In this document: positions 4,846 through 8,931 of the stretch, piece by piece
Numbering within the stretch: the stretch's first letter is position 1
Layout: the number at the start of each line of letters is the position of its first letter
From: Haloprofundus salilacus
GTDB lineage: Archaea > Halobacteriota > Halobacteria > Halobacteriales > Haloferacaceae
Direction: 5' to 3'
Assembly (NCBI RefSeq): GCF_020150815.1
Contig: NZ_CP083723.1
Coordinates: 310,001 to 374,000 of the forward strand
DNA: 64,000 nucleotides
Translations under genes and position numbers: made by a program
The notes under the pieces: generated by a model
Database searches by the model: none
Seen by the model: the letters and a program-made list of their open reading frames with translations, nothing else
What the model was told of the DNA's origin: nothing

Positions 4846-6201
4846 ATGACCGAGCGGATGCACCTCAACCTCTTCACGATGAACTCGGTGGAGCACGTCT
4901 CGCCGGGGCGGTGGACGTACCCAGGTGACCAGTCGCACCGCTACACTGACCGCGATTACTGGACCGAAGTCGCGCGAACCGCCGAACGCGGCGGCTTCGA
5001 CGCCATCTTCTTCGCCGACGTGCGCGGCATCTACGACGTGTACGGCGGCGATCGGGATTCGGCGATCCGGAACGCCATTCAGACCCCCGCGAACGACCCG
5101 CAGGCGCTCGTCCCCGCAATGGCCGAGGTGACAGACCATCTCGGCTTCGCCGTCACCCGGTCGACGACGTACACTCACCCGTACCAACTCGCGCGCGAAC
5201 TGTCGACGCTCGACCACCTCACCGACGGGCGAGTCGCGTTCAACATCGTCACCTCCTACCTGGAGAGCGCCGCCGAGAACCTCGGCCTCGACGAGCGGAT
5301 GGACAGGGAAACGAGATACGACCGCGCCGACGAGTTCATGGACGTCTGCTACGCGCTCTGGGAGGAGAGCTGGGAGGAGGACGCCGTCGTGGCCGACCGC
5401 GAGCGCGGCGTCTACGCCGACCCCGAGAAGGTCCACGCCATCGACTTCGACGGCGAGTTCTTCTCGGTGCCCGGCCCGCACAGCTGCGAGCCGTCGCCGC
5501 AGCGGACGCCCGTGCTGTATCAGGCAGGGTCGTCGGACCGCGGCCGCGACTTTGCCGCCGACAACGCCGAAGCCGTCTTCGTGAGCCAGCCGACCGAAGC
5601 GGGCACCCGAAGCTACATCGAGGACATGCGCGAACGGGCCGCCGACCGCGGCCGCGACCCCGATTCGCTGCTCTTCTTCCCGGGTATCGTCCCCATCGTC
5701 GGCGAGACGGAGGAACTCGCGCACGAGAAACACGAGAGCTTCCGCGAACACGTCAGCACCGAGGGGACGCTCACCATGCTGTCGGGATTCTTGGACATGG
5801 ACCTCTCGCAACTCGACCCCGACCAGAAGGTCGAACACATCGAGACGGACGCGATTCAGGGCGCGATGAACGCGTTCACGAAGAACGACCCCGACCGCGA
5901 GTGGACCGTCCGCGAAGTCGCCGAGTTCTCGGGGCTCGGCTCTACGTCGCCGGTCGTCGTCGGCACGCCCGAGCAGGTCGCCGACGAACTCCAGCACTGG
6001 TTCGAGGAGGTCGGCGTCCACGGCTTCAACGTCAAGGAGATTACGCGACCGGGGACGCTGAACGACTTCGTGAACCTCGTCGTGCCCGTCCTCCGCGAGC
6101 GCGGGTTAGTGCGCGAGGCGTACGAAGGCGAGACGCTGCGCGAGAACGTCCTCGGCGCGGGGCAGCGTCGGCTCCGCGAAGACCACCCGGCGAAGCAGTG
6201 A
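4846..6201 (+). CDS. Luciferase-like (LLM) flavin-dependent monooxygenase, NtaA/SnaA/DszA type
   Basis: This is a 451-residue TIM-barrel flavoenzyme that uses reduced FMN and O2. Family members oxidise nitrilotriacetate, pristinamycin, dibenzothiophene sulfone and similar compounds. Visible features are MHLNLFTMNSVEHVSPGRWTYP at the N-terminus, DYWTEVARTAERGGFDAIFFADV, the long-chain type segment FNIVTSYLESAAENLG, and VLYQAGSSDRGRDFAA, which contributes to the FMN phosphate pocket. Length matches the NtaA branch. A weak box A (CTATTACTG, about 4814-4822) lies 28 nt upstream. The neighbours are a winged-helix protein upstream and an ABC exporter downstream. The substrate is not deducible, and no flavin reductase is adjacent. 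Confidence 0.88.
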   Translation: MTERMHLNLFTMNSVEHVSPGRWTYPGDQSHRYTDRDYWTEVARTAERGGFDAIFFADVRGIYDVYGGDRDSAIRNAIQTPANDPQALVPAMAEVTDHLGFAVTRSTTYTHPYQLARELSTLDHLTDGRVAFNIVTSYLESAAENLGLDERMDRETRYDRADEFMDVCYALWEESWEEDAVVADRERGVYADPEKVHAIDFDGEFFSVPGPHSCEPSPQRTPVLYQAGSSDRGRDFAADNAEAVFVSQPTEAGTRSYIEDMRERAADRGRDPDSLLFFPGIVPIVGETEELAHEKHESFREHVSTEGTLTMLSGFLDMDLSQLDPDQKVEHIETDAIQGAMNAFTKNDPDREWTVREVAEFSGLGSTSPVVVGTPEQVADELQHWFEEVGVHGFNVKEITRPGTLNDFVNLVVPVLRERGLVREAYEGETLRENVLGAGQRRLREDHPAKQ

Positions 6202-6277: not shown

Positions 6278-8137
6278 GTGACCGACGCAGACGCGCCGTT
6301 TCAAGCGCTCGCCGCCGACGTCGAACGCCCGATACAGCGGGTGTTCGCCGAGTACGGAATGCCGGAGCTACAGTGGTTGACGCTCGGCGTCCTGACGAGT
6401 TTCCTCTCCCGGGCGGCGAATCTCGTCCCGCCCCTCCTTCTCGGTGTCACGCTGAACGCCGTCGAGTCCGGTCCGAGCGCGTACAGCCTCCCGCTCGTCC
6501 CCGACGCGTGGCTCCCGCCGGGGGTGCCGGGGCAGCTGGCGCTGTCGATAACGCTCATCGCGATCGCGTTCGTCGTCGCCGCGGTGGCGTCGTGGGGGCG
6601 GACTGTGACGCTGAACCTGTTCGCACACCGCATCGAGCACTTTCTCCGGACCGACACGTACGAGCGGATGCAGGCGCTCGACATGGCCTTTTTCGACGAC
6701 AAGCAGACCGGCGAGATAATGTCAGTGCTAAACAACGACGTGAACAATCTGGAGATGTTCTTCGACAACGCCCTAGAGAGCACCATCCGTCTCGTCGTGA
6801 TGGTGCTCGGCATCGCGGGCGTGCTGTTCTACCTCAATTGGCAACTCGCCGTCGTCACGCTCGTCTTCGTCCCGGTGCTCGCGGGCTTCACCTACTGGTT
6901 CATGACGCGCGTCGAACCCGTCTACGCCGCTGTCCGGTCAAGCGTCGGCGGTCTCAACATCCGACTGGAGAACAACCTCTCGGGTATCGACCTCATCAAG
7001 ACCACGGCGACGGAAGCGTACGAGGCCGAGCGCGTCCGCAGCGCCTCACAGGAGTACTTCGACCAGATAATGACCGTCATCAAACTCTCGGGCATCTACC
7101 AACCGGGGATGCAGTTTATTGGCGGAATGACGTTTCTGGCGACGTTCGCCGTCGGCGGCTACTGGCTGGTCGTGGGCCCGCCGCCGTACGCCAGCGGGGC
7201 GTTGCAGGTCGGGACGTTCGTCACGTTCGTCACGCTCGCCCGGGAGTTGGTCGCGCCGGTCAGCGAGTCGGGCAGCATCGTCGAGTGGTACGAGAACGCG
7301 CTCGCATCAACGCGGCGCATCTATGCGCTCCGCGACCTGCCGACGAGCATCGACGACCCGGACGCCCCCGTTTCGCTCGGCGCCGTTGAGGGGCGCGTCG
7401 AGTACGACGCGGTCTCCTTCTCCTACGACGAGAACGAGCGGGTGCTCGACGACGTGAACTTCGTCGTCGAACCGGGGGAGACGCTCGCGCTCGTCGGTCC
7501 CACGGGGGCAGGCAAGTCGACGATTCTGAAGCTCCTTCCGCGGCTCTATGACGTCGACGACGGGTCGGTTCGCGTTGACGGCGTCGACGTGCGCGACGCC
7601 CCGGTCACCGAGTTACGCGGCGCTATCGGCTACGTCGGTCAGGAGACGTTCCTCTTCGACGGCACTGTCGCCGAGAACCTCCGGTACGGGGCGTTCGACG
7701 CAACGGACGAGGAAATGGTCGACGCCGCGAAAGTCGCGGAGGCGCACGAGTTCATCGAAGAACTCGCCGACGGCTACGACACTCGCATCGGCGAGCGCGG
7801 GGTGAAGCTCTCGGGCGGCCAGCGCCAGCGACTCTCGATCGCGCGCACGGCGCTGGCGGACGCGCCGATTCTCATCCTCGACGAGGCGACGTCGGCGGTC
7901 GACACCGAGACCGAACGACGCATCCAGCGCGGGCTGGACCGACTCACCGAGGACCGGACGACGCTCGTCATCGCACACCGCCTTTCGACGGTGACGAACG
8001 CCGACCAGATTCTCGTCCTCGACGACGGGCGAATCGCCGAACGCGGGTCGCATCGGGAACTCCACGCCACCGACGGCGAGTACGCGTCGCTGTGGGCGGC
8101 GCAGGCGACGGCGTCTGCGGAGCCGCACAACAACTGA
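6278..8137 (+). CDS. ABC exporter, fused membrane and ATPase domains
   Basis: This 619-residue half-transporter of the MsbA/MDR type would act as a homodimer in the membrane. Residues about 30-330 form the six-helix transmembrane domain, with the conserved MALDMAFFDDKQTGEIMSVLNNDV coupling region. The ATPase follows, with Walker A GPTGAGKST near residue 408, the ABC signature LSGGQRQRLSIA near 512, Walker B ILILDEATSAVD near 531 and switch IAHRLSTV near 563. All catalytic residues are intact. It starts with GTG at 6278, 76 nt after the monooxygenase on the same strand. The exported substrate is unknown; export of a product of the upstream oxygenase is only a suggestion from position. Confidence 0.93.
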   Translation: MTDADAPFQALAADVERPIQRVFAEYGMPELQWLTLGVLTSFLSRAANLVPPLLLGVTLNAVESGPSAYSLPLVPDAWLPPGVPGQLALSITLIAIAFVVAAVASWGRTVTLNLFAHRIEHFLRTDTYERMQALDMAFFDDKQTGEIMSVLNNDVNNLEMFFDNALESTIRLVVMVLGIAGVLFYLNWQLAVVTLVFVPVLAGFTYWFMTRVEPVYAAVRSSVGGLNIRLENNLSGIDLIKTTATEAYEAERVRSASQEYFDQIMTVIKLSGIYQPGMQFIGGMTFLATFAVGGYWLVVGPPPYASGALQVGTFVTFVTLARELVAPVSESGSIVEWYENALASTRRIYALRDLPTSIDDPDAPVSLGAVEGRVEYDAVSFSYDENERVLDDVNFVVEPGETLALVGPTGAGKSTILKLLPRLYDVDDGSVRVDGVDVRDAPVTELRGAIGYVGQETFLFDGTVAENLRYGAFDATDEEMVDAAKVAEAHEFIEELADGYDTRIGERGVKLSGGQRQRLSIARTALADAPILILDEATSAVDTETERRIQRGLDRLTEDRTTLVIAHRLSTVTNADQILVLDDGRIAERGSHRELHATDGEYASLWAAQATASAEPHNN

Positions 8138-8283
8138 CAGCGTGCTGGCCGAAATGGTCGTGGTGCCAGACGGCCGCTATCGTGTTGGTCGAGACGACCG
8201 GTGGCTCGACTCCGGCAAACAGGCGACGGTGACTCTCAAACTGACTGACCGGTCACCCCCCTCAGGCTGCCGTCTGCGCCATG

Positions 8284-8291
8284 CTTAAGTA
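8284..8291 (+). promoter_or_regulatory. Box A element upstream of the candidate structured RNA
   Basis: CTTAAGTA lies in a non-coding region and matches the haloarchaeal TATA box consensus. Transcription would start about 25 nt downstream, near 8311, right at the first strong stem. Confidence 0.5.
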
Positions 8292-8309
8292 CACAGGGGC
8301 TCTGGGTTC

Positions 8310-8412
8310 AGGTGACGCTTCGCTTTGGAGGGCCGAAGCGTCAGCGGGGACCAATTTAGGGCGGCAAACGCTGCACCCTTGCTTTTCTCACGGGTGCGGC
8401 GTTTTCCCCTTT
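8310..8412 (+). ncRNA. Candidate structured small RNA
   Basis: Two strong stem-loops lie side by side in a stretch with no convincing ORF. Stem 1 pairs 8313-8322 with 8334-8343 (10 perfect base pairs, TGACGCTTCG with CGAAGCGTCA, 11-nt loop). Stem 2 pairs 8366-8378 with 8392-8404 (13 pairs, one G-U, 13-nt loop). Stem 2 is extended by GGGGA (8346-8350) pairing with TCCCC (8405-8409), leaving a 15-nt one-sided bulge. A box A lies just upstream, and a short TTT follows the last stem. It is not a tRNA, 5S, SRP or RNase P RNA by length or motifs. No K-turn or ACA box is evident, so I cannot assign it to the H/ACA class. Confidence 0.5.
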
Positions 8413-8535
8413 CGGACGACACAACCACCGACGAGCGGCGAGTCTCGCCGTATCAGACGCCCGTACTAGAGAAACCGAGCGGTCGCTCGGCGTCTCGTCT
8501 TCGACCATTCGCGCAACGCCTCGCAGAACTTCACG

Positions 8536-8846: not shown

Positions 8847-8931
8847 TGCGAGGGACGAGATTTGAACTCGCGAATCCCTACGGAAGCGGGTCTTAAGCCC
8901 GCCGCTTTTGGCCTAGCTCAGCCACCCTCGC
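8847..8931 (-). tRNA. trnL-TAA: tRNA-Leu (anticodon TAA)
   Basis: On the minus strand an 85-nt cloverleaf can be drawn. The acceptor stem is GCGAGGG/CCCTCGC. The D arm contains GGCTGAGCTAGGCC. The anticodon stem GCGGG/CCCGC encloses loop CTTAAGA with anticodon TAA. A long class II variable arm follows (TTCCGTAGGGA region), then T arm GCGAG-TTCAAAT-CTCGT. The long variable arm and A discriminator (8847) agree with leucine. CCA is not encoded and no intron is visible. Confidence 0.95.

Follow-up and report, generated by a model that had tools for sequence, protein, structure and literature searches.

The conservation of haloarchaeal small RNAs (sRNAs) has been stated to be extremely low: of 27 deleted sRNAs of Haloferax volcanii, 22 are confined to the species, while H225.2R was found in 19 further haloarchaeal genomes and hts10 in 18 (PMC3956466). 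Elsewhere, a study of vesicles reported HVO_2908s and H3.2 as common to H. volcanii and Hbt. salinarum (PMC10927574), and an RNA-seq study reported a very abundant 111-nt intergenic RNA (PMC5892119). H. volcanii also has a two-hairpin H/ACA RNA. In Methanosarcina, sRNA162 (PMC3510493) is a standalone archaeal sRNA combining hairpins with single-stranded seed regions, and sRNA154 is reportedly a trans-acting sRNA of the same type.

The RNA described here, one copy of which lies in the 64,000-nt stretch of Haloprofundus salilacus DNA that was analysed (the window), resembles H225.2R and hts10, the few reported as widely conserved, in being a small intergenic haloarchaeal RNA, and shows the opposite of the extremely low conservation noted in that catalogue. 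A parallel might also be struck with SRP RNA, RNase P RNA and 6S RNA, which are likewise near-universal in their clade, structured and built on a conserved core; it differs from these in having no Rfam match at either threshold. In a scan of the window with Rfam 15, only a tRNA-Leu (8847-8931) reaches the curated thresholds, and the permissive threshold adds two chance-level matches far below gathering scores. The sequence-only reading had held the locus to be unlike tRNA, 5S, SRP and RNase P RNA, and this stands, no Rfam family matching it. It shares with the archaeal H/ACA guide RNAs the presence of two hairpins within ~100 nt. As a candidate, an H/ACA guide was rejected: there is no guide pocket, the 5′ stem forming 9-10 continuous pairs in all copies, no ANA box follows either hairpin (the 5′ hairpin is followed by AGCGGGGACC), and no kink-turn signature is present. 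A C/D guide was likewise rejected, boxes C (RUGAUGA) and D (CUGA) being absent from the conserved core. With Methanosarcina sRNA162 and sRNA154 it would share, if transcribed on its own as inferred, the layout of a standalone archaeal sRNA with hairpins and single-stranded stretches; it differs in that the covariance model built here has no match among the Halobacteriota sampled beyond the order Halobacteriales, and neither sRNA162 nor sRNA154 is known to be related to it in sequence.

The core sequence was not found printed in the literature searched, nor was a description of the family found there. Single members may nonetheless have been detected already as transcripts. H. volcanii should carry this RNA, which may be H225.2R or hts10, and the same possibility extends to HVO_2908s, H3.2 and the 111-nt RNA; no sequence comparison backs any of these identities.

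An RNA spanning the Halobacteriales

The covariance model recovers the window copy at 8310-8416 with 105.7 bits and detects the RNA in 284 of 293 Halobacteriales genomes, or 253 of the 255 of good quality. The nine genomes lacking it belong to three families (f2, f9 and f11), and a more sensitive search confirmed the absence in seven of them. In a phylum-wide sample of 197 genomes, all 32 with a match are Halobacteriales, and none of the sampled Halobacteriota outside that order has one. BLAST with a 161-base query found matches in 55 of 60 related genomes; beyond the genus, only 8312-8367 is held in common, at ~90-100% identity, with the flanks lost. An exact 26-mer from the core occurs in at least 119 contig stretches, the 80 named ones all being haloarchaeal. 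A pattern leaving the stem arm free (TGGAGGGCN{5,14}AGCGGGGACC) is present in 282 of the 293 genomes, with its reversed control scoring 0 in every genome; only four of its listed matches, in a few genomes, carry a different stem arm. What is retained is a core of ~36 nt (stem, loop and linker) that is mostly constant, with a 3′ hairpin that is free in sequence.

Positions 8310 to ~8412 of the window hold one member of a noncoding RNA family that spans this haloarchaeal order. Its conservation, structure, promoter, taxonomic range and two syntenic sites are shown; its expression is inferred. The earlier reading, which had proposed a noncoding, structured RNA some 100 nt long and served by a promoter of its own, is supported in its structure and promoter, the transcript remaining an inference, and it underestimated the reach of the RNA, which is near-universal in the order rather than a local curiosity. 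Among viral contigs the exact core is absent, and no phage record has it either. A looser pattern gave 28 matches in viruses, none with the stem, and these were judged to be chance.

Promoter, hairpins and linker

Table 1. Positions of the RNA gene and its parts in the window
Feature	Position	Strand	Remarks
Small noncoding RNA	8310..~8412	+	~100 nt; exact 3′ end not fixed
Promoter, with BRE region and TATA box	8275..8291	+	box A CTTAAGTA at 8284-8291
Inferred transcription start	8310	+	A of conserved CA; C-A at -5/-4, archaeal TATA spacing
5′ hairpin	8313..8343	+	stem 8313-8322 with 8334-8343; loop 8323-8333 CUUUGGAGGGC
Linker AGCGGGGACCAAUUUAGGGCGGC	8343..8365	+	invariant over its first ten bases
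3′ hairpin	8366..8404	+	13 bp with one G-U pair; T-rich end after

Across 175 copies, a CGnTA-like BRE occupies -37 to -33 from the 5′ stem, its C-G falling at -37/-36 and its A at -33, and the TATA box has the consensus TTTAAGT at -30 to -24 from the first stem base. A TTWAW motif was found in 126 copies, and in 119 of them its spacing to the 5′ stem is exactly 30 nt. The start was placed, by inference from the sequence, at the conserved CA because its distance from the TATA box is the one usual in archaea; the C at -5 and the A at -4 are each kept in 72% of copies, and the interval from box A to the start shows no conservation. The box A proposed in the sequence-only reading (Table 1) held, with a conserved spacing. 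The additional outer helix of 5 bp that it drew was not supported as a part of the transcript: it appears when the whole stretch is folded as a single sequence, but its 5′ arm (~8295-8299) falls ahead of the inferred start, in the unconserved interval after the TATA box. As a separate observation, in the copies at site II, one of the two genomic sites described below (window 8260-8291; Halorubrum loci L056, L059, L073 and L080), the promoter is overlapped by a CTGCCGnnnnCGGCACGCTTAAG-like stretch that is missing from site I copies and is possibly the site of a regulator.

The 5′ stem of the window copy, TGACGCTTCG/CGAAGCGTCA, can be read directly as the perfect 10-bp helix that had been claimed for it, and in the form GACGCUUCG/CGAAGCGUC it is the same in nearly all primary copies. 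The loop ends in UGGAGGGC. Among 186 copies its variants are CUUGGAGGGC (87), CUUUGGAGGGC (58), UCUGGAGGGC (36) and, rarely, longer forms (5), and in 186 sense copies its length is 10 nt in 123, 11 nt in 62 and 12 nt in one. The linker opens with AGCGGGGACC in 183 of the 186 copies sharing the stem, and its remainder, most often AAUUCAGGGCGGC, gives way to other sequence in some clades. Since the stem hardly varies in the main alignment, its support as a helix comes from a few divergent extra copies with compensated arms: GACGCUCCG/CGGAGCGUC (L216, L217), GCGCUCUG/CAGAGCGU (L196, L220), UGCGCUUCG/CGAAGCGCA (L195, L219) and GCGCUCCG/CGGAGCGU (L256). Some extra copies were found by patterns demanding the loop and linker, so the conservation of those elements in such copies is partly by construction.

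The 3′ hairpin presents the reverse picture of free sequence under a retained shape. In the window its stem, AAACGCTGCACCC/GGGTGCGGCGTTT, pairs 8366-8378 with 8392-8404, the G-U pair being 8372-8398, so that the claimed 13-bp stem with a G-U pair also held; a T-rich stretch at 8402-8412 is likely the termination zone. Covariation across relatives had, like the Rfam scan, been proposed as a check in the sequence-only reading, and compensatory changes proved abundant: over 100 distinct copies, two-sided changes are seen at all 14 of the 14 modelled pairs of this hairpin. Such changes fill 477 cells, compared with 157 when shuffled; the covariation score reaches 0.503, compared with 0.118 for shuffles, and slid controls rise no higher than 0.096. 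It might be objected that an alignment fitted by a covariance model leans towards its own structure; the slid controls still reach only about one-fifth or less of the score. MAFFT with RNAalifold alone missed this hairpin, its arms being out of register, and covariance-model fitting recovered the pairing. The folding energy of the stretch is -60.5 kcal/mol, with one of 200 dinucleotide shuffles being as good (z -4.1). Taken alone this would be weak proof; it is the covariation across relatives that furnishes real support.

Two genomic sites and the divergent extra copies

The RNA is found at two gene neighborhoods: site I, present in all RNA-bearing families, and site II, confined to the one two-copy family, which we take to be the Haloferacaceae from named loci such as those of Haloferax, Halorubrum and Halegenticoccus. 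At site I, the upstream side holds a conserved small ORF together with a gene that is DUF7117-like or of another kind, and downstream there is often an antisense amphi-Trp gene, a PadR-family regulator of ~91-101 aa similar to Halobacterium RosR (PDB 6qfd, E 3e-25), and then AI-2E-type or MgtC-type genes. Site II has a luciferase-like monooxygenase or TrkA-type gene upstream and often a ferredoxin-like gene downstream. The neighbors which we take to be DUF7117, AI-2E, MgtC, FolD, TrkA and Lrp were named by reading their sequences. Because its form is unchanged between the two sites, the RNA is not the leader of one gene.

The window copy is the site II, or second, copy of the Haloferacaceae. 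It is preceded by an NtaA/DmoA-type luciferase-like monooxygenase gene (4846-6201) and an MsbA-like ABC transporter gene (6278-8137), and is followed by a small reverse-strand ORF, the tRNA-Leu (on the minus strand) and a weak ferredoxin-like protein. In several relatives ~100 nt separates the end of the monooxygenase gene from the RNA; the window has the MsbA-like transporter gene between the two. The site I copy of the same genome (C1:926985-927084) is flanked by two RosR-like PadR regulators (L031 2261-2545 and 3719-4024), and a 48-aa ORF (L031 2780-2926; MRDEAEIREQYEFLKAELDDEEMRHERVKQMFTYYKRALGWVLEEEHI) ends ~60 nt upstream of it. ORFs similar to the latter occur at many loci, and it has no Pfam or NCBIfam match.

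Divergent extra copies of the core are seen on plasmid pHLAC01 of Halorubrum lacusprofundi (L194 2496-2600) and on a plasmid of Haloarcula sp. GH36 (L193 2503-2593), with further ones at L195/L219, L196/L220, L255 and L256. The extra copies have other promoters and 3′ parts, and are located on plasmids and, for one genome, next to a phrog_35116 virus-family protein; they are possibly versions of the host RNA carried by mobile elements. A TRAM-domain protein, of an RNA-binding type, is found near one of them (L220 914-1351), and another TRAM-domain protein is annotated near the pHLAC01 copy (L194 178-591).

Proposed roles and the alternatives

In the reading that we prefer, the RNA acts in trans, with its 5′ hairpin and linker docking a conserved partner. 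We regard this as an evenly balanced proposition, in which expression, partner and function are all inferred. A strong archaeal promoter of its own would drive a standalone noncoding RNA; the 5′ hairpin, the loop ending in UGGAGGGC and the single-stranded AGCGGGGACC would form one recognition module; and the 3′ hairpin with the T-rich end would protect and terminate the transcript, a role needing shape only. The module would dock one conserved macromolecule, either a protein or the ribosome, in a ribonucleoprotein (RNP) of the housekeeping type or a stress RNP. A single conserved partner is favored over pairing with varied mRNAs because the stem sequence hardly drifts. Of the two kinds of partner, the ribosome is without sequence support, since pairing of the loop and linker with the rRNA operon gives duplex energies no better than those of shuffled queries; the 16S/23S/5S operon contains no exact complement reaching 9 nt, and the apparent SD-like GGAGG forms no more than 5 bp with the anti-SD. 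A bolder version, which we hold to be less likely than not, would see here an unclassified core haloarchaeal RNA with a reach like that of SRP or 6S RNA, forming the RNA part of an unknown RNP. If this is true, the partner in that RNP reads the hairpin, the UGGAGGGC loop and the AGCGGGGACC linker.

The best-surviving rival, towards which we lean modestly negative, is a trans-acting base-pairing sRNA whose G-rich loop (UUGGAGGG) and linker (AGCGGGGACC) serve as seeds for C-rich mRNA sites. Known haloarchaeal and methanogen sRNAs act in this way; the layout, with seeds in loop and linker and a terminator-like 3′ hairpin, matches that of many regulatory sRNAs; the seeds are kept where the stem changes, with the caveat that the search pattern partly demanded them; and duplicates with different upstream sequences fit differential regulation. 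Against it, the stem sequence is near-invariant too, and no target was found: the complement of 12 nt of the linker, searched in 40 genomes, recurs almost only at the RNA genes, i.e., in the RNA copies themselves with a few scattered single matches, which disfavors one conserved long antisense target. That search used one 12-mer, and many-target seeds of 6-9 nt are not excluded by it.

It is unlikely that the RNA is a cis-acting leader, attenuator or 3′ UTR element, e.g., of the RosR-like PadR gene that lies downstream at the ancestral site. In about half of the copies collected from that site, the RNA is indeed followed by a PadR-type gene on the same strand, usually within some 100-650 nt; however, the second copy of the Haloferacaceae, including that of the window, has other neighbors, an antisense amphi-Trp gene often intervenes between the RNA and PadR, and the RNA has its own promoter and T-rich end. 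A DNA element, such as a protein-binding inverted repeat or a recombination site, finds some footing in the near-invariant inverted repeat of the 5′ stem, but can be all but set aside given that the asymmetric loop and linker are conserved equally, the 3′ hairpin covaries in an RNA-like manner and a promoter sits at a fixed distance upstream of each copy examined. Similarly remote is a very small protein gene starting from a GTG at the RNA head, for although the window sequence (GTG ACG CTT ... TAG) gives an open frame of 15 codons, this start is not maintained across copies, no codon position is better conserved than the others and the 10/11/12-nt loops shift the frame between invariant blocks, so that no reading frame is conserved. 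The ATG at 8281 comes immediately ahead of box A and thus of the point where transcription is inferred to begin; the earlier claim of no plausible ORF held, none being conserved across copies.

Returning to the RNA itself, the fact that a ~36-nt core scarcely changes while the rest drifts indicates an essential or near-essential partner. The conserved RNA matches no Rfam 15 family; the family, its structure and its range are shown, and its function is inferred only. The covariance model made here allows the RNA to be annotated in any haloarchaeal genome, and model strains with few copies make its function directly testable. In light of the published view from H. volcanii that sRNA genes are hardly conserved (PMC3956466), this RNA stands out as one present in nearly the whole order.
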